Assembly: GCA_017608385.1 (NCBI GenBank)
Contig: JAFCFZ010000001.1
Location: 72,734 to 116,755 of the forward strand
Direction of reading: 5' to 3'
Origin: Candidatus Parvarchaeota archaeon
Lineage (GTDB): Archaea; Nanobdellota; Nanobdellia; B33-G15
Length of the DNA: 44,022 bases
Positions within the stretch are counted from its first letter, which is position 1; each line of letters starts with the position of its first letter. The translations under genes were made by a program, and so were the position numbers. Below the pieces are notes generated by a model. It was not told the DNA's origin and ran no database searches. It saw nothing but the letters and a program-made list of their open reading frames with translations. Positions 11,514 through 40,070 of the stretch are shown piece by piece.

Positions 11514-14500
11514 ATGGGTTATGATCAGCACAAAGTAGAAGATAGGATATTAAAATTTTGGAAAAAGAATGAAATATATGAAAAGGTTAGAAAGAGAAAG
11601 GGTAAAAAATTCTTTTATTTGGATGGTCCTCCTTATGCTAATGGAAATCCTCATCCGGGACATTTACTAAATAGAACTCATAAAGATATTATAAGAAGGT
11701 ACAAGTGGATGAATGGGTTTAATGTTTGGGACCAACCCGGATTTGATTGTCACGGACTTCCTATTGAAACTGCTGTTGAGAAAAAATTTGGACTAAAAAA
11801 CAAGCAGGATATTGTTAATTTTGGGGAAAAAAGGTTTGTTAAAGAATGTGAGGACCTAGCAAGAAAAAATGTAAAATTAATGTCTGATGTGTTTTACAGA
11901 TTAGGGGAATGGGCAACATGGAACAAACCTTATCTCACAATTGATGATAGTTATTTAGAATCAGTTTGGTGGTCTTTCAAAGAATTATGGAAAAAGGATT
12001 TAGTATACAAGGGTGAAAGGGTTCTCCACTGGTGTCCAAGATGTGGAACTGCCTTAGCTCCAAACTATGAAATTGTTTACAAAAACCTATCTGACAAATC
12101 AATTTATGTTAAATTTCCTGTAAAAGGAAGAGATAATGAATTTTTAATAATATGGACAACAACACCATGGACAATTCCATTTAATTTAGCAGTAATGGTT
12201 CACCCAAACTTTGATTATGTTAAAATCAAAAATGGTTTGGAAACATGGATTGTTGCAAAAGATTTAGTGAAAAATCTTGGAGATTTTGAAATAATTGAAA
12301 CAATGAAGGGAAAAAAATTAGAGGGTGTGGAATATTGGCACCCATTTTTCACAGAAATTCCTTATTTTTCTAAAACAAAATCAAAATGGATGCACAAAAT
12401 CTTGTTAACTGATAAATATGTCACACTTGAAGCTGGAACAGGATTGGTTCATTCTGCTCCTGGATGTGGGCCCGAAGATTATGAAATAGGTAAAAAATAT
12501 GGACTTAAACCCTTTAATAATGTGGGAGAAGACGGAGTTTTAAGAGATATGGGTCCTTTTACTGGATTCAGAGCAAGAAAAGATGATGAAAAAATAGTGG
12601 ATGCTTTGGATAAAAAGAGTCTCCTAGTTGGAGATTCTAGATTTTCTCATGAATATCCTACTTGTGAAAGATGTGAAACTCCTGTCTTATTTAGAACAAC
12701 AACTCAATGGTTTATCAAAGCAACAAAAGCCAAAACAAAGATGTTGAAAGAAAACAAGAAGATTTATTGGGTTCCTGATTGGGCAGGAAAAAAGAGATTT
12801 TCTTTGTGGTTAAAAAATATCAAGGATTGGTGTGTAACAAGACAAAGATATTGGGGAATTCCTATTCCTATTTGGGAATGTGATAAATGTAAAAAAATAG
12901 AAGTTATTGGAAACAAAAAAGAACTCAAGAAAAGACCAAAAAATCTTCATAAACCAGATATTGACAATGTTACATGGAAGTGTAAATGTGGAGGAACATT
13001 CAGGAGAAACCCAGATGTCTTAGATGTATGGTTGGATTCTGCTTGTGCTCCTTTTGCAAGCCTTTCATATCCAAATAATCAGAAATTATTCAAAAAATTA
13101 TATCCAGCTGATTTGATTATTGAGTCTCATGATCAATTCAGAGGTTGGTTTTACTCTTTAATGGCTATGAACACTTTTCTCTTTGAAAAAAGCCCTTACA
13201 ATTCAGTATACATGCATGGACATGTTTTGAATGAAAAAGGAGAGAAAATGAGTAAGAGATTAGGAAATTTTATTCCGGTTCCTAAAATAATGAGTGATTA
13301 TGGAGCAGATTTATTTAGAATGGGAGCAATGATTGCAACCCACCCAGGACTAGATTGGAACTTTGGGGAAAGATCCTTGAAGGAAGCATATAAAATATTG
13401 AATACCTTATGGAATTTGAAAGAATTGATTGAAGGAGCTTCTAAACTTCACAAAATAAAACCTAAAGAGATAGTTTCTCTAGGAAATGAAGAGGATAAAT
13501 GGATCATTTCAAGGATAAATTCTCTTGTTTTTGAAACAACTCAAAGAATGGAAGAATATGAATTAAGTGAGCCAGGTAAATTAATTGCGGATTTTATTTT
13601 AGAAGATTTTAGCAGGTGGTATGGAAAATTAGTAAGAGATAGATTATTCAACTCAGGAAAAAAAGAAGCAGAAAAAGTCCTCAACAATATGTATTATTTA
13701 ATGAGAAGGGTATTGTTGCTTGCAGCTCCAATTGTCCCATTTATCACGGAAGAGGTTTATCAAAAGATGAAAATGGGTGAAAGTATCCATTTAGAGAAAT
13801 GGCCTTCTTATGAAAAAAAATTGATCTCTATTAAATTGGAAAAAGAAATGGATTTTGCCAGAAAAATGGTTCAAAACATTATGGCATTGAGGGACAGGGA
13901 AAAAATAGGAGTTAGATGGCCAATTGAAAAGGTTTTATTGGTTTCAAACATAGATGATCTCAAAAAAATGGATAGGTTCATAGAATTAGTTAGAAATTAT
14001 ACTAATGTTGTGGAGATTGAATTGACCAACAAACATCCTAATGTGGAAATGTCCTTTAAATTCAATTATGATAATCTAAAAAGACATGGGGATAAAGTAG
14101 CTTCAGTAATAACAAAGGTTATGGGTTCTGATCCAAAAGGAGTAATGGAGAAATTAGACAATGGAGAAATGGAAATTAATGGTCTAAAGTTAACCCATAG
14201 TGATTTTAAATTTGAGATGAAATCAGATAAGTATTCTATTTCAAAAACAGATTTTGGAACAATATATCTCGATAGAGAAATCTCTGAAAAAGGAATGGAA
14301 CAAGGATATGTCAGAGAAATAATAAGAAGAATTCAAGAAGAAAGAAAAAAGAAGCAATTGCAAAGAAAGGATTTTATGGTGGTTAAATTGGCCACAGATA
14401 AGGAAATGGAAGCTATTTTAGAGAAAAATAAAGAGGAGATAGAAACACGAACTAATTCCAGATTTGAATTTGGAGAGGGAGAAAATGAATTTAAAATCAA

Positions 14501-14543
14501 AGACAGAAAATTCAAAATATCTATTCTTAAAAAAGTGAATTGA
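11514..14543 (+). CDS. ileS: Isoleucyl-tRNA synthetase
   Basis: 1009-residue class I synthetase that charges tRNA-Ile. The HIGH-type motif (PYANGNPHPGH) ends near residue 49. The CP1 editing domain contains TTTPWTIPFNLAV, a WCPRCG zinc motif and a second Cys cluster (CDKCKK, CKCGG), and KMSKR lies at residues 578-582. A C-terminal anticodon-binding helical domain follows. Length is normal for archaeal/eukaryotic-type IleRS. The ATG at 11514 is ~28 nt from a TATA-like box and has no clear Shine-Dalgarno, so it is probably leaderless. Its stop overlaps the convergent VIT-like pseudogene by 17 bases. A candidate tRNA substrate with UAU anticodon is encoded at 25881. Confidence 0.97.
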   Translation: MGYDQHKVEDRILKFWKKNEIYEKVRKRKGKKFFYLDGPPYANGNPHPGHLLNRTHKDIIRRYKWMNGFNVWDQPGFDCHGLPIETAVEKKFGLKNKQDIVNFGEKRFVKECEDLARKNVKLMSDVFYRLGEWATWNKPYLTIDDSYLESVWWSFKELWKKDLVYKGERVLHWCPRCGTALAPNYEIVYKNLSDKSIYVKFPVKGRDNEFLIIWTTTPWTIPFNLAVMVHPNFDYVKIKNGLETWIVAKDLVKNLGDFEIIETMKGKKLEGVEYWHPFFTEIPYFSKTKSKWMHKILLTDKYVTLEAGTGLVHSAPGCGPEDYEIGKKYGLKPFNNVGEDGVLRDMGPFTGFRARKDDEKIVDALDKKSLLVGDSRFSHEYPTCERCETPVLFRTTTQWFIKATKAKTKMLKENKKIYWVPDWAGKKRFSLWLKNIKDWCVTRQRYWGIPIPIWECDKCKKIEVIGNKKELKKRPKNLHKPDIDNVTWKCKCGGTFRRNPDVLDVWLDSACAPFASLSYPNNQKLFKKLYPADLIIESHDQFRGWFYSLMAMNTFLFEKSPYNSVYMHGHVLNEKGEKMSKRLGNFIPVPKIMSDYGADLFRMGAMIATHPGLDWNFGERSLKEAYKILNTLWNLKELIEGASKLHKIKPKEIVSLGNEEDKWIISRINSLVFETTQRMEEYELSEPGKLIADFILEDFSRWYGKLVRDRLFNSGKKEAEKVLNNMYYLMRRVLLLAAPIVPFITEEVYQKMKMGESIHLEKWPSYEKKLISIKLEKEMDFARKMVQNIMALRDREKIGVRWPIEKVLLVSNIDDLKKMDRFIELVRNYTNVVEIELTNKHPNVEMSFKFNYDNLKRHGDKVASVITKVMGSDPKGVMEKLDNGEMEINGLKLTHSDFKFEMKSDKYSISKTDFGTIYLDREISEKGMEQGYVREIIRRIQEERKKKQLQRKDFMVVKLATDKEMEAILEKNKEEIETRTNSRFEFGEGENEFKIKDRKFKISILKKVN

Positions 14544-25880: not shown

Positions 25881-25971
25881 GGACCCGTGGCCTAGTCTGG
25901 CGGGGCGCTGGTCTTATAAGTCCACGTCCTAAGAGAACCAGAAGTCGCCGGTTCAAATCCGGCCGGGTCCA
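25881..25971 (+). tRNA. tRNA-Ile(TAT) with a 17-base intron
   Basis: Acceptor GGACCCG/CGGGTCC, discriminator A; T arm GCCGG/CCGGC with loop TTCAAAT; anticodon stem CTGGT/ACCAG. The loop region is 24 bases. It folds as a bulge-helix-bulge: central helix CTTA/TAAG flanked by three-base bulges TAA and AGA. Cutting each bulge between its second and third base removes 25919-25935 and leaves a seven-base loop CTTATAA, anticodon TAT at 25915-25917, with the intron in the canonical 37/38 position. UAU reads AUA. ATTAAAAA about 29 nt upstream is the likely TATA box. Confidence 0.88.
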
Positions 25972-32066: not shown

Positions 32067-33625
<1,559 letters not shown>

Positions 33626-33653
33626 AATGTTACAGTATGTAATATTATTATAC

Positions 33654-33691
33654 AAAGAACACATTGGGCACCATACTCTCTCTTGATAATA
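33654..33691 (+). other. Pre-16S processing stem, 3' arm
   Basis: It is the complement of 32025-32062, as described there. It ends shortly before the small ORF at 33710, so that ORF's mRNA would be cut from the pre-rRNA or made from its own start. Confidence 0.88.
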
Positions 33692-33709
33692 GTTCTTAAA
33701 AGTGAATTT

Positions 33710-33946
33710 ATGGAAAATGAAAGAATAACAATAGAAATTTATTTAGGTAGGTTTACAAATGAACTTATCTCAAAAATAGATGATTATAGAGCAAATTTAC
33801 TTGAAAATGATATAATCTCACATAGTTCATACAAAAAGATTGAAAGAGGCATATATATTATTAATTTAAACAAAGATGATTTCACTGAAAAGGTCCAAGA
33901 AGAATTTAAAGATATTCTAGATGGAGTTTCTTACAAAGTAATTTAG
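33710..33946 (+). CDS. Small protein after the 16S gene, unknown
   Basis: 78 residues from ATG 33710 (MENERITIEIYLGRF). Upstream in-frame ATT/ATG-type starts would lie in the rRNA processing stem and are rejected. The composition is normal for this genome, mixed alpha/beta with charged residues. No TATA box stands out at the expected distance, so it may be expressed from the 16S precursor. No family is recognised. Confidence 0.55.
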   Translation: MENERITIEIYLGRFTNELISKIDDYRANLLENDIISHSSYKKIERGIYIINLNKDDFTEKVQEEFKDILDGVSYKVI

Positions 33947-33986
33947 ACATAAAAATACTTTTAAACTGGATTTTTACTCTTAAAAT

Positions 33987-34253
33987 ATGAGTATAGTTGT
34001 TTTATTAGGAAGCGAAAAAAGAAATAAAAATCTGGAAAATTTTATACATAGTATGAATAATGTTAGAGATATATCTATTAGTACAACTCTTTTAGAAAAT
34101 TACGATAAAAAACACTATATTTCATTCATTGATTATTCTAAAATGGACCTAACTTCAATGAAGAAAATAAAAGAGTGGCTTAAAACACATAGTATCATGG
34201 AGTCTGGTCAAGAGTATCCAAAAGAGAATGAGTATGTATTAATTGAAAAATAA
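33987..34253 (+). CDS. Small protein, unknown, with its own promoter
   Basis: 88 residues, starting MSIVVLLGSEKRNKNLENFI. TTTTAAA at 33959-33965 is ~26 nt before the ATG, matching the leaderless pattern seen across the window and supporting a real gene. It looks like a small alpha/beta protein (a hydrophobic strand followed by helices). It ends one base before the convergent prenyl synthase. No family is recognised. Confidence 0.6.
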   Translation: MSIVVLLGSEKRNKNLENFIHSMNNVRDISISTTLLENYDKKHYISFIDYSKMDLTSMKKIKEWLKTHSIMESGQEYPKENEYVLIEK

Positions 34254-34254
34254 A

Positions 34255-35214
34255 CTAGGTCTGTCTTTCTAAGATTAAGTCAACAACTTCAATCAATATC
34301 TTTTTTGCATCTGTTTCTGGAAGATCTTTTATTGAATCTTTAGCCTTTTCTAAATAGGTTTTGGTGATTGCTTCTGCTTTCTTTTTTGCATCTGTTTTAT
34401 TGATTATCTCAATTGCTTTTTCAACATCTGGATTATCTTGAAGGAGTATAGTATATAGGTCTTCACTATCAGCTAAAAGAATAACTATATTTCCTAACTT
34501 ATGTTCTAAAATATCCTTACCTATTTTCTTTCCAAATAGGGCTTCGTCTCCATAAATATCGAGAATGTCGTCAGTTAATTGAAAAGCCATACCAAGATTG
34601 TAACCATATTTTTTAAGAGCTTCTATTTGTTCTTTACTCCCTTCTCCAAGAATTGCTCCCATCTCACAACTAGCTTTGATAAGTTCTGCTGTTTTTTTAG
34701 AGATCATATCATAATAATCATCTAAAGTGATCTTTCCAAATTTATTTTCATTATAAAATGGTTCATCTCTCCCATATTGTTCAAAAAGAACATCTTTCAT
34801 CTCTCCATCTGACAATACTTTTGCTATTCTAGTGAGTATTTCTACAATAGGTTTCCCACACTTATTTGCCGCCTCCACTGCTGCAGACATAAAAACAAAA
34901 TTAACACATTCTGTCCCAGATAGACCATATTTCTTAATTATCGTTGGGTTTCCTCTTCTGATTTCCCCTTTATCAATTATATCATCTACTATCAAAGTAC
35001 AATAATGAAATAATTCAATTGATCCATAAGCATATAATGCATCTCTTTGTTTTCCACCAACTGCTTCACAAGATAAAAGAACCAGATTACCTCTAATTCT
35101 CTTTCCACCAGTAGATATTGCATATTCAGCTATATCCTTCAAAAGATCAGTATCTTCTAGAAGTAGTTCCTTCATCAATTTTTCGGCTTCTTCATTTGGT
35201 TCAGGTAATTTCAT
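34255..35214 (-). CDS. Polyprenyl (geranylgeranyl-type) diphosphate synthase
   Basis: 319-residue trans-isoprenyl synthase that builds the C20-C25 chains of archaeal ether lipids. First Asp-rich motif: LIVDDIIDKGEIRRG. Second: QLTDDILDIYGD. The substrate Lys/Arg region GGKRIRGNL near the N-terminus and the KKTAELIKASCEMGA helix are also present. Chain length cannot be fixed by eye. The ATG at 35214 is 26-27 nt from a palindromic TATA box (35237-35244) that also faces tRNA-Ala. Confidence 0.93.
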   Translation of the reverse strand: MKLPEPNEEAEKLMKELLLEDTDLLKDIAEYAISTGGKRIRGNLVLLSCEAVGGKQRDALYAYGSIELFHYCTLIVDDIIDKGEIRRGNPTIIKKYGLSGTECVNFVFMSAAVEAANKCGKPIVEILTRIAKVLSDGEMKDVLFEQYGRDEPFYNENKFGKITLDDYYDMISKKTAELIKASCEMGAILGEGSKEQIEALKKYGYNLGMAFQLTDDILDIYGDEALFGKKIGKDILEHKLGNIVILLADSEDLYTILLQDNPDVEKAIEIINKTDAKKKAEAITKTYLEKAKDSIKDLPETDAKKILIEVVDLILERQT

Positions 35215-35236
35215 TGAGAAACCGATTAACTTAACA

Positions 35237-35244
35237 TTTATAAA
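35237..35244. promoter_or_regulatory. Symmetric TATA box shared by prenyl synthase and tRNA-Ala
   Basis: TTTATAAA is its own reverse complement. Its centre is 26.5 bases from the prenyl synthase ATG on the minus strand and 27.5 bases from the first base of tRNA-Ala on the plus strand. Both distances match archaeal TATA-to-start spacing. No other TATA-like element lies in the 53-base gap. Confidence 0.7.
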
Positions 35245-35267
35245 ATGATTGGAAATCTAATTGATAT

Positions 35268-35339
35268 GGGCCTGTAGTCTAACGGTAGGACACCTGCCTT
35301 GCACGCAGGAGGCTGAGGGTTCGATTCCCTCCGGGTCCA
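35268..35339 (+). tRNA. tRNA-Ala(TGC)
   Basis: Acceptor GGGCCTG/CGGGTCC with the G3-U70 pair that defines alanine identity, discriminator A; anticodon stem CCTGC/GCAGG with loop CTTGCAC, anticodon TGC at 35300-35302; T arm GAGGG/CCCTC. It lies between 16S and 23S in the same direction, as in euryarchaeal rRNA operons, but with protein genes on each side. Confidence 0.95.
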
Positions 35340-35352
35340 TTAGGTAATTTTT

Positions 35353-35805
35353 ATGCTTAGAGCTGTTGAGTTTGAACTATCTGCAAAAGGATTTGAATTA
35401 GATTTTTCTCTTTCTGAAGTAGGTTATGTTGTACAATTAAAGAAAAAAGATTCTGAACTTATGGGACAAACAATATGGTTTTCAAAAAATGATAAGGAAG
35501 GGATTATTGGGGAGATAAGTTTAATTCAAGCATATAGGGGTAAAGAAAATAAGGGGGTTGCAACAATAACCACAGGTAGTTCATTATTACAAATGTGTGA
35601 AAATTGTGATATTCAAAATGTATACTCTAGTGTTATTTCCAATATTTCTAAGAGAATATTGAAGAATTTTGGTTTACAAGTTGTCAAATATAATAAACTT
35701 TCTTCTACTTGGGTCCTTCAAGGAAGAATAGATCCAGATTTTATTTTGGATAAACTTTACCAAAAAATAGAGAGGATTGATGAGAATTTAGTTTCATTGA
35801 TATGA
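35353..35805 (+). CDS. Small protein, possibly GNAT-like, unknown
   Basis: 150 residues starting 13 bases after tRNA-Ala, with a weak AGGT before the ATG; it may be co-transcribed with the tRNA. Residues ~60-105 (SLIQAYRGKENKGVATITTG ... SSVISNISKRILKNFGLQVV) loosely recall the R-G-K and N...L...GF elements of GNAT acetyltransferases. The N-terminal half does not give clear support. The stop abuts the convergent glycosyltransferase by one base. Confidence 0.65.
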   Translation: MLRAVEFELSAKGFELDFSLSEVGYVVQLKKKDSELMGQTIWFSKNDKEGIIGEISLIQAYRGKENKGVATITTGSSLLQMCENCDIQNVYSSVISNISKRILKNFGLQVVKYNKLSSTWVLQGRIDPDFILDKLYQKIERIDENLVSLI

Positions 35806-36969
35806 TTAGTTCTTTTCAAATGGTCTCTTGAGTTTGACTCCTTTGTGATATTTGTCTCCTTCTACTTTTACCCATTTTACTCCTTCTCCAAAAATATAGT
35901 CTTTTAGTACATATAATATAACCAAAATATTCATTATAGTTCCAACTACTAGAAAAGCAGGAATCCACAAAATCAAAAATGGTTTTGATTTAAATGACAC
36001 CATACAAAGAACAATAGCTAAAACATTCAATAAGAAAATGTGCCAAGGATAATTACTTAGGAAAAATGCAATCAATGAAATAAAACCAGCAAGAGCATTT
36101 AATGTAAACAAAGAAGAAAAAGGAATTCCTCTTTTTGAATTACATTTAACTCCTGCCTCAACAGTCCCAACAATCCATCTCTTTCTCTCTTTAACAAAGG
36201 AATCAAAATTATTGACTGACTCAACTAGAACATAAGCTTTGGGGCACATCTCCACTTTGTATCCTTTATCCCAAAGTGCTGAACTTAATTCCGCATCTTC
36301 TGTTATTGTTTTTGTCCCATAATAACCTACTTTTTTTAGGGTTTTCATTCTAACTGCATGATTACTACCATAAGTAGCAGTATTTCCAACAATGTTTTTT
36401 CTCCCCCACATTCCAGCAGAATAAAACCAAAAATCTTCAACTGTTCTTATCTTTGTGATCCAATTGTCATCAAAATTACCAGAATAAGCTGGACCACACA
36501 CAGCATGAACTTTCTTATCATTAAAATGTTCCATCAAATTACTTAACCAATTATTAGGCATTACCGCATCTATGTCTGTATTAACAAGGATTTCTCCTTT
36601 TGCATGTTTTTTTATGACTTTATTCAAAAATTCTGCTTTTTTTTCATGATGTTTTTCAGATCTAACATAAGTTATTTGTCTCTTGTACTTCTTACATATT
36701 TGAGAAGTTCTATCTGTGCTTCCATCATCTGCTATAATTATTTGGACCTTTTTCTTGGGGTAATCTTGATCTAAAACGCATTTTATAAATCTCTCAACAA
36801 TATGATCATCATCCCATGTCCTTGCAATAACAGTGACTTTTGGCTTTTTTCTATTGGCTTGGACTTTAAAATGAACTTTATCTTTTTGAAAAGACATCAA
36901 ACCAGTCCCTAAATTAATCAACGAAATTCCAATCAGTGTCACGTCCCAGAAGTTGACATGAAGGCTCAT
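35806..36969 (-). CDS. Membrane-bound family 2 glycosyltransferase
   Basis: 387 residues from ATG 36969. The longer start at 36987 is rejected because a TATA box at 36992-36999 sits only ~9 bases from it but 26.5 from 36969. One N-terminal membrane segment precedes the GT-A domain with DDGSTDRTSQICKKYK, NTDIDAVMPNNW (D-x-D) and TEDAELSSALWDKGY. The ERKRWIVG stretch is like the QxxRW motif of processive cellulose/hyaluronan-synthase-type enzymes. Two to four C-terminal membrane helices follow. It probably elongates a cell-surface polysaccharide; the sugar is unknown. Confidence 0.9.
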   Translation of the reverse strand: MSLHVNFWDVTLIGISLINLGTGLMSFQKDKVHFKVQANRKKPKVTVIARTWDDDHIVERFIKCVLDQDYPKKKVQIIIADDGSTDRTSQICKKYKRQITYVRSEKHHEKKAEFLNKVIKKHAKGEILVNTDIDAVMPNNWLSNLMEHFNDKKVHAVCGPAYSGNFDDNWITKIRTVEDFWFYSAGMWGRKNIVGNTATYGSNHAVRMKTLKKVGYYGTKTITEDAELSSALWDKGYKVEMCPKAYVLVESVNNFDSFVKERKRWIVGTVEAGVKCNSKRGIPFSSLFTLNALAGFISLIAFFLSNYPWHIFLLNVLAIVLCMVSFKSKPFLILWIPAFLVVGTIMNILVILYVLKDYIFGEGVKWVKVEGDKYHKGVKLKRPFEKN

Positions 36970-36991
36970 GGGTAATAATTGTGACATAAAG

Positions 36992-36999
36992 TTTATAAA
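36992..36999. promoter_or_regulatory. Symmetric TATA box facing the glycosyltransferase and the 23S rRNA
   Basis: TTTATAAA is centred 26.5 bases from the preferred glycosyltransferase ATG (minus). On the plus strand it would start a transcript near 37022, about 130 bases before the 23S processing stem. It is the only strong TATA core in this intergenic region. Confidence 0.6.
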
Positions 37000-37093
37000 C
37001 CCCTTACATCATCTTAGTTGTTAGATGCAAAATAATTAGACAATCGATGATGCGATATTTGCTGATGATTTCTTGAAATATACGCTAGATGTG

Positions 37094-37140
37094 CATAGAG
37101 AGATAAGAGTCTCTATGTGAAGACTGAAACATGTTTCAGT
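37094..37140 (+). repeat. Hairpin and perfect 18-base palindrome in the 23S leader
   Basis: CATAGAGA (37094-37101) pairs with TCTCTATG (37110-37117) around an eight-base loop. Next, ACTGAAACATGTTTCAGT at 37123-37140 is a perfect palindrome. Both lie just upstream of the pre-23S stem and would be in the primary transcript. Confidence 0.8.
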
Positions 37141-37154
37141 TCATGTTCATGAAA

Positions 37155-37175
37155 GTCATGCATAGATAACGAAGC
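37155..37175 (+). other. Pre-23S terminal stem, 5' arm (partner 40060-40080)
   Basis: The 21 bases pair perfectly with 40060-40080. ATGAAA before and TTT(T)CAT after extend the helix with a single bulged T. No pair of three-base bulges is seen, unlike the 16S stem. Part of this helix corresponds to helix 1 of mature 23S. Confidence 0.85.
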
Positions 37176-40070
37176 AGAAACGCTGTTGGGTGGATGGCTC
37201 GGCTCAGGCGCCGAAGAAGGGCGTGGCAAGCTGCGATAAGCCTTGGGTAGACGCACGCAGTCTTTGAACCAAGGATTCCCGAATGAGAGTCTCTATATAC
37301 TCCCGCATGGGAGGGGGAACGCGGGGAATTGAAACATCTTAGTACCCGCAGGAAAAGAAATCAATCGAGATTCCCTTAGTACCGGCGAGGGAAAAGGGAA
37401 AAGGGCAAACCGAATGTGTTGTCGTGAGATAGCACAGATGTGGGGTTTGGGCCAACATAACTTCTTCAAGATGAAGTCAAAGTCCACTGGGAAGTGGTGC
37501 CATAGAGGGTGATAGCCCCTTAGACATAAATCAAGAAGAAGTAGTTGGTTCCAGAGTAGGGCAGGTTGGGATTCCTGTCTGAATGTGGGAGTCAACAACT
37601 TCCAACCCTAAATACGTCCTGAGACCGATAGCTCACAAGTACTGTGAAGGAAAGCTGAAAAGTGCCCCAGATACGGGGGTGAAAAGATCCTGAAACCCAA
37701 CAGCCACAGAAAGTTGCGGCCCTAAAGACGTAAGTCAGGGTTGCAACGTTCCTTTTGGATAAAGAGCCAGGGAGTCTAGGGTTTTGGCGAGGTTAAGGAG
37801 AGTAACTCTGTAACCATAGCGAAAGCGAATTGTCTGCAGTTTACAAGGGACATGGGTGTGAAAGCGCCCGAGTCAAAGCTCTAGTACCCGAAGCCGCACG
37901 ATCTAGGCGTGGGCAGGGTGAAGCCGAACAATTGTTCGGTGGAGGCCCGAAGCAGTAGTGTTTAATGCCTTTGTCTGACCTGCGTCTAGGAGTGATAAGC
38001 TAATCGTGTGCGGCAATAGCTGGTTCCCCCCAAAGTGAGCCTTAGTTCAGCCTCGTCGGAGCATGCCATAGGGGTAGAGCTACTGATTGGAAGTTCAGGG
38101 AGAGAAATCTTTCGGCTTCTTGTCAAACTCCGAATCCAGTGGCTGCGTAGAAGACGGGAGTCGGGGCATCGGGGTAAGCTCGATGACCGAGAGGGGAACA
38201 ACCCAGACCAAGGTTAAGGTCCCAAAGTGCCGGTTAAGTGTGAAACTCTGTGTTAATTCATAGACACCAGGGAGGTAGGCTTAGAAGCAGCCATCCTTTA
38301 AAGAGTGCGTAAAAGCTCACCTGCCTAGAGTTGGCGCGAGAAAAATGGACGGGGCTAAATCGGCCACCGATACCTTGGAATTTGAAAGAATTGGTAGGGG
38401 GGCGTCCGGGCTGGGCAGAAGCAAGGTCGTGAGGTCTTGTGGACCGGTTCGGATCGAGAATCCTGGCGGTAGTAGCAACAAAGCAGGGTGAGAACCCCTG
38501 TCGTCTTAGGAGCAAGGGTTCCTCAACGATGTGAATCAGTTGAGGGTTAGTCGATCCTAAGTCAAACCCTAACTGGGATTTGGCGAATGGGAAGCAGGTT
38601 AATATTCCTGCACTATTTAGGTACCTTGGGTGACCGATGCCTATCAGTGACGCTTCCGGATAAGTCGAGCAATGCCATCGCGTTGTTTAATTAAGATAGG
38701 TCTGAGGAGTCTTGTAATGAGGAGAATCAGAGCAATCTTAAGAATAGCCTTCATTAGAAGGTTCGATCGATTCCAGGAGCCCGTGAAAAGCTTGATAGGA
38801 AATGGAATCCTAGATATTCGTACCCAGAACCGATACAGGTGCTCCAGGTGAGAAGCCTAAGACGTATAGGGATAACGTAGCTAAGGGAACTCGGCAAATT
38901 GGCCCCGTAACTTCGGGATAAGGGGTTCCTGCACTAGTATGTTTTAACATGCTTCTGCAGGAGGCACTGACTAGGGAGGGGGGACTGTTTAATAAAAACA
39001 TAGGAGACTGCAAGCCCTAAAGGGTGAGTACAGTCGCCGACGCCTGCCCAGTGCCGGTATCTGAATACTCAGTTCAATGGGTGCAAGGACCGGTAAACGG
39101 CGGGGGTAACCGTAACCCTCTTAAGCAAGCGCAATGCCTTGCCATTTAAATGATGGCTTTGCGAATGGCGTAACCACCTCTCCACTGTCCCTAGCTGGGA
39201 CCCTGTGAACACACCTTCCCGGTGTAAAGGCCGGGGACCTCCAGCGGGTCGCGAAGACCCCAGGAACTTCACTGTAATCTGCTGCTGTGTTAATCGTCTG
39301 TTAGTAAAGCGTAAGTGGGAGACGTCGAAGGGAATCCGCGAGGAAACCTGGAGTCAAACTTGTGACACCACTCTTTCAAACGCTTAACGCTCACTTTTCT
39401 TTATAGGAAAGGACACCAGTTGACGGGCAGTTTGGCTGGGGCGGCACGCCGGCGATAAAACATCACCGGCGCCCAATGGTCAACTCATCCGGGTCAGAAC
39501 TCCGGAGTAGAGCGTAAGGGCAAAAGTTGGCCTGACTGTTTTTTAACCAGTACAAAAAGCAGGTACGAAAGTAGGGCCTAGCGATCCCCAATGTCCTTCT
39601 TGTTGAGGGCTTGGGGTGACAGAAAAGCTACCCTGGGGATAACAGAGTTGTCGCGGGCTAGAGTTCATATCGACCCCGCGGCTTGCTACATCGATGTCGG
39701 CTCTTCCCATCCTGGTTGTGCACATGCAGCCAAGGGTACGGGGGTTCACCGATTAAAGGGGATCGTGAGCTGGGTTTAGAACGTCGTGAGACAGTTCAGA
39801 TGTTAACTACTGGAGGTGTTCGGTGTCTGCGTGGAAGGAAGCTTAAGTACGAAAGGAACGAGCTCCCGAGGCCACTGGTTTACCGGTTGTTCGACAGAGC
39901 AGGCCGGGCAGCTACGCCTTATGGGATAAGAGCTGAAAGCATCTAAGCTCGAAGCCCTCCGTAAAAATAGACACCGTTAAGACCGGAAATAGAACATTTC
40001 GTTGATAGATCAGGGATGTAAAACCGTAAGGTCCAGTCCGCTGATACTAATAGGTCGAAGCTTCGTTATC
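37164..40070 (+). rRNA. 23S ribosomal RNA
   Basis: Conserved landmarks run in order: GGTGGATGGCTCGGCTC near the 5' end, GCGTAAAAGCTCAC (L11 region), the helix 69-71 region at ~39105-39140, GCGAAGACCCC, TGGGGCGGCACGCC (P loop region), GGGGATAACAGAG and CTACATCGATGTCGGCTC (peptidyl-transferase ring). GAGCTGGGTTTAGAACGTC (A loop) and the sarcin-ricin loop at 39846-39858 follow. Ends are estimated from the terminal helix (GATAACGAAGC/GCTTCGTTATC); length ~2907. It stands as its own unit with no 5S seen within the ~4 kb downstream that remain in the window. Confidence 0.96.

Follow-up and report, generated by a model that had tools for sequence, protein, structure and literature searches.

A cell that reads AUA must avoid misreading AUG, and agmatidine is regarded as the archaeal solution to this classic decoding problem. 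The locus examined here raises the question of how AUA is read in an archaeon that carries an intron-bearing isoleucine tRNA gene with a UAU anticodon instead. It lies in a 44,022-nucleotide stretch of the genome of a Candidatus Parvarchaeota archaeon, a small organism of symbiont type; we refer to the stretch as the window. AUA accounts for 407 of the 998 isoleucine codons (41%) in 27 open reading frames of the window, and a codon so heavily used must be read. As an overall explanation we favor, with good confidence, the combination of decoding by UAU, splicing between positions 37 and 38, and a conserved pre-tRNA hairpin for which we propose a role before splicing.

The tRNA-Ile(UAU) gene and its splice site

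The gene is a tRNA-Ile with a UAU anticodon, and its charging with isoleucine is predicted (Table 1). It matches the Rfam tRNA model with 56.1 bits (E 1.5e-9). ARAGORN recognizes a tRNA of unassigned type when no introns are searched for, and a tRNA-Ile(TAT) with a 17-nt intron when they are allowed. Read directly, the acceptor stem has 7 bp (GGACCCG/CGGGTCC) and is followed by A73, CCA is not encoded, the anticodon stem is CTGGT/ACCAG, the loop becomes CTTATAA once spliced, and every stem pairs. The spliced tRNA is identical to the tRNA-Ile(GAU) of its own genome at 60 of 74 positions, more than to any other tRNA there, and the two have the same acceptor stem and a D arm, TGGCCTAG, that is unusual. 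This likeness gives the tRNA an isoleucine identity, as far as sequence allows. Isoleucyl-tRNA synthetase (IleRS), which the earlier note had placed in the same window, is indeed encoded there, scoring 833.6 bits against TIGR00392 (cut-off 621.4; E 1.9e-250).

Splicing is predicted at an archaeal 37/38 bulge-helix-bulge (BHB), with a 4-bp central helix and flanking 3-nt bulges. The central helix joins CTTA (32-35) to TAAG of the intron, the 5' bulge is TA/A and the 3' bulge AG/A, with the slash at the junction. As the helix within the intron is weak in the window copy, we class this BHB as relaxed. The cut site is ambiguous by one base, A standing at both junctions, and the mature sequence and anticodon are the same either way. 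Across 48 genes the central helix is paired in 179 of 192 cells, and i2:i-7 and i3:i-8 (i, intron position) covary. The earlier note had called an intron-bearing tRNA-Ile(UAU) here from its cloverleaf, BHB intron and CTTATAA loop; its coordinates were exact and all three can be read from the sequence, the BHB in its relaxed form.

Elsewhere in the window, at 32068-40070, the 16S and 23S rRNA genes stand 3.5 kb apart, with a tRNA-Ala and several open reading frames between them, an unusually loose rRNA operon.

Table 1. Positions of the tRNA-Ile(UAU) features and the IleRS gene in the window
Feature	Position	Strand	Basis
IleRS, presumed charging enzyme	11514..14543	+	TIGR00392
tRNA-Ile(UAU) gene with 37/38 intron	25881..25971	+	Rfam; ARAGORN; nearest genomic tRNA is Ile(GAU)
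Alternative pre-tRNA hairpin (probable)	25902..25930	+	Positions 21-26 and 29-32 with intron i2-i12; loop UUAUAA
Relaxed bulge-helix-bulge (predicted)	25913..25936	+	CTTA 25913-25916 with TAAG 25930-25933; bulges 25917-25919 and 25934-25936
Anticodon TAT, positions 34-36	25915..25917	+	Sequence; ARAGORN with introns
17-nt intron AGTCCACGTCCTAAGAG between 37 and 38	25919..25935	+	ARAGORN with introns; same site in 48/48 UAU genes

AUA decoding without agmatidine

From the UAU anticodon the earlier note had suggested that the agmatidine pathway was lost, and it proposed a search for tiaS and a third CAU tRNA. Neither was found in the source genome, a 93.9% complete draft with just two CAU tRNAs, one the initiator (AGCGGG...) and the other an intron-bearing elongator. 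TiaS (PF08489) was likewise found in none of 279 genomes sampled from the phylum Nanoarchaeota/Nanobdellota, in a search that recovered all four positive controls (M. jannaschii, H. volcanii, S. acidocaldarius and M. acetivorans). These results support the loss of the agmatidine pathway.

AUA might still be read by an agmatidine-modified CAU tRNA-Ile2 encoded in an unassembled part of the genome, with the UAU gene a minor or dead copy. The source genome leaves some room for this, being a 700-kb assembly in 31 contigs with 35 detectable tRNAs, from which about ten expected tRNAs are missing. Because it is a draft, we tested relatives for TiaS and CAU tRNAs. One of them, G098, is a single contig of 606 kb whose 43 tRNAs cover all 20 amino acids; its isoleucine set consists of Ile-GAU and Ile-UAU, and its CAU tRNAs number exactly two. 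A complete tRNA set without a third CAU, the lack of TiaS in every phylum genome sampled, and a UAU gene that is intact in every stem and found across the phylum together make a hidden CAU tRNA-Ile2 extremely improbable. tRNA-Ile(UAU) is very probably the sole reader of AUA in this archaeon, which lacks the agmatidine synthetase.

How widespread this state is was addressed by pattern search. A UAU tRNA with an isoleucine body occurs in at least 48 of 80 genomes (47 plus the window's own), spread over families; the patterns were strict, and the remaining 32 are not thereby shown to be UAU-free. CAU matches with an Ile/Met body, under the same pattern, never exceeded one per genome among the 80. 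A CTAG...CTTATAA pattern taken from the window's D arm found no true relative, because the isoleucine tRNAs of the source genome carry TGGCCTAG in place of the TAGCTYAG of most others. A pattern for the 3' half was swamped by TATA boxes ahead of other tRNAs, and yielded the first five true relatives.

Similar UAU matches were found in Micrarchaeota, Diapherotrites, Aenigmarchaeota, Nanohalarchaeota and two Lokiarchaeota MAGs, where single MAGs may carry binning errors. TiaS is absent from 49 of the 50 tested genomes carrying such matches; the lone exception is a Sulfolobales MAG, whose hit is on a 3-kb contig. UAU decoding without TiaS characterizes the phylum as a whole, of which Nanoarchaeum, a known UAU case, is a member, and it recurs in other DPANN phyla. 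The earlier note was right to tie the UAU anticodon to agmatidine loss, and too narrow in holding that such a tRNA is known only from a few reduced archaea.

Nanoarchaeum equitans and Korarchaeum cryptofilum have been described as having a UAU anticodon and no tRNA-Ile2(CAU) (PMC6000648, PMC8450103), as seen here. The K. cryptofilum gene, which is similar to the Ile-GAU gene of that species, also contains an intron (PMC6000648), whereas the N. equitans gene was said to have no homologue in other archaea (PMC2237900). A tRNA survey of archaea sequenced earlier listed UAU in 2 of 167 genomes (PMC6000648), so that such surveys missed a common state. What sets the present case apart from N. equitans and K. 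cryptofilum is that the trait is phylum-wide and that the intron can adopt a second, conserved fold. The archaeal tRNA-Ile2(C+AU)/TiaS system solves the same AUA/AUG problem with components that are both missing here.

Two records labelled Lokiarchaeota (L156 and L202) have an intron-bearing UAU tRNA-Ile-like gene, the former on an 819-kb contig, and TiaS was found in neither. If these are not binning errors, they bear on the use of UAU in eukaryotes. Diapherotrites also have intronless genes with a CTTATA loop, as do records that carry a bacterial label, including one of Meiothermus luteus (L164, L172, L174, L176, L192, L221 and L225).

A conserved alternative hairpin in the pre-tRNA

In the phylum, each of the 48 readable UAU genes is interrupted between positions 37 and 38 by an intron of 17-55 nt, as against 4 of 17 Ile-GAU genes with an intron. 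The UAU introns begin W-G-N-C, with G at i2 in 48 of 48 and C at i4 in all except two genomes. This constancy is accounted for by pairing of i2-i5 with positions 32-29, which are paired in 172 of 192 cells (shuffle mean 161.7). Both genomes with G at i4 have C30, and the 30:i4 pair is kept in 48 of 48, including these two C-G flips. Further into the intron, i7-i11 (consensus CGYTY) are complementary to strand 22-26 of the D arm; U stands at i7 in 8 of 11 genomes with A26, and mostly C in those with G26. The 3' strand of the D arm and the 5' strand of the anticodon stem can thus pair with the 5' part of the intron, a hairpin of -12.4 kcal/mol in the window copy taken alone that also appears within the minimum free energy (MFE) structure of the whole pre-tRNA.

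Judging from its pattern of covariation, this hairpin is in all likelihood real. Its ten pairs are formed in 79.6% of cells, seven of them have changed on both sides, and the covariation score is 0.258; all five measures of pairing and covariation lie above 500 of 500 shuffles, for an ungapped alignment of 48 distinct sequences and with shuffles that leave relatedness in place. That last property, with the fact that the cloverleaf constrains the 5' sides of the pairs through the D stem and anticodon stem, lends some weight to a reading in which the pairing is a functionless relic of common descent or low divergence among related sequences. Several results make this improbable. The two-sided changes occur in several families, and 30:i4 is kept throughout. 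Pairing falls from 80% to 43-47% when the partner is shifted by one column (37-50% for one to three columns), and swapping introns between genomes also costs pairing. Finally, nothing similar is seen in the introns of other tRNAs of this class. In single-sequence folding the hairpin is part of the MFE structure for 36 of 46 UAU pre-tRNAs, 0 of 12 elongator tRNA-Met (eMet) and 0 of 4 GAU pre-tRNAs. RNAalifold, run on the alignment, returns the central three pairs only.

The hairpin extends beyond this alignment. Three or more of the four upper pairs are kept in 42 of 42 named Woese-, Pace- and Nanoarchaeota loci, some eight of which are the same genes as among the 48, and in 4 of 4 intron-bearing Diapherotrites, but in only 8 of 20 intron-bearing Micrarchaeota. 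The signature GCRNNGGTCTTATAWGDC, which spans the anticodon arm and the intron start, is present in 126 of 279 genomes, once in each; its reversed control occurs in 1.

Since C32 pairs with i2 in the hairpin and with a G near the 3' end of the intron in the BHB, the two structures are mutually exclusive, and the pre-tRNA has two conserved states. The hairpin did not figure in the earlier note. Neither it nor the phylum-wide UAU trait is described in the open full-text literature that we searched.

A second intron, of 13-94 nt and often ending in GAAAGT, interrupts the T loop in 13 of 46 machine-parsed UAU genes (L067, L078, L081-L083, L087, L088, L090-L093, L095 and L100), and the T arm seems interrupted as well in L060 and L079. 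Genes of this kind may escape standard tRNA finders. In the source genome (G000), the introns of tRNA-Ser(GCT) (L034) and tRNA-Leu(CAA) (L035) also seem able to form an anticodon-loop hairpin, of about 7-8 bp by eye.

Possible roles of the hairpin before splicing

We tentatively propose that the hairpin serves modification or protection of the anticodon before splicing. In the pre-tRNA it would display U33-U34-A35-U36-A37, so that U34 and U36 could be modified, or shielded from wrong modification, ahead of BHB formation. The transcript would then be spliced at the relaxed BHB to give the loop CUUAUAA and be charged by IleRS. AUA would be read through an ordinary U34-A pair, the outcome being a tRNA-Ile(UAU) that reads AUA and not AUG.

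We prefer this reading because an unguarded UAU anticodon appears dangerous, and because intron-dependent modification has a precedent in yeast. When a haloarchaeal tRNA-Ile was mutated to UAU, it acquired cnm5U34 and bound AUG as well, as summarized in PMC7694415, citing Mandal 2014. Yeast pre-tRNA-Ile(UAU) likewise bears an intron and needs to discriminate AUA from AUG; the structure of its intron matters before splicing, and Pus1 makes its anticodon pseudouridines only as long as the intron is in place (PMC4090602). The parallel has its differences. The intron here pairs with the D arm and anticodon stem, the modification is one that we infer, and 79 of 80 genomes, the source genome included, have no member of the TruA/Pus1 family (PF01416). 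We therefore reject a Pus1-like TruA as the modifying enzyme, and pseudouridines at 38-40 would have to be made otherwise or be absent. Elp3 (76 of 80 genomes) and TruD/Pus7 (68 of 80) remain mere candidates, since some hairpin-bearing genomes lack one or the other and presence does not strictly track the hairpin. Nor does the UAU intron look like a box C/D guide, as no C or D boxes were seen by eye, unlike in the eMet introns. Many UAU genes of Micrarchaeota are intronless, which means that AUA can be read in DPANN archaea without an intron and counts against the proposed role.

Nearly as likely as modification is that the hairpin times folding or splicing. It would form as the 5' half is transcribed and give way to the BHB after synthesis of the 3' half, possibly hiding the anticodon stem or the splice site in the meantime. 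In favor of such timing, the hairpin is in the MFE of 35 of 46 5' fragments, and both structures contain conserved partners for i2 and i3; timing gives no reason, however, why the hairpin is confined to the UAU tRNA and is lacking from the introns of eMet and Ile-GAU in these genomes.

The introns of eMet(CAU) look like box C/D guides (L021, G000:C3:47918-48029; L120-L139). For 11 of 15 of them, a match of 5-7 bp to their own tRNA pairs C34 with the fifth base ahead of a box-D-like motif, each with p of about 0.01 or less by shuffling; the intron is absent in 6 of 20 relatives. If these introns are guides, they would direct 2'-O-methylation of C34 in cis. It is tempting, though rather doubtful, to join the two observations: the UAU hairpin would direct a modification as yet unknown in archaea and independent of yeast Pus1, the eMet intron would guide methylation of C34, and the reading of both AUA and AUG would be set by intron RNA.

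In a broader context, a large archaeal phylum reads AUA without agmatidine. The conserved hairpin in its tRNA-Ile(UAU) precursor offers a testable handle on how this is done, and may extend functional tRNA introns beyond yeast.
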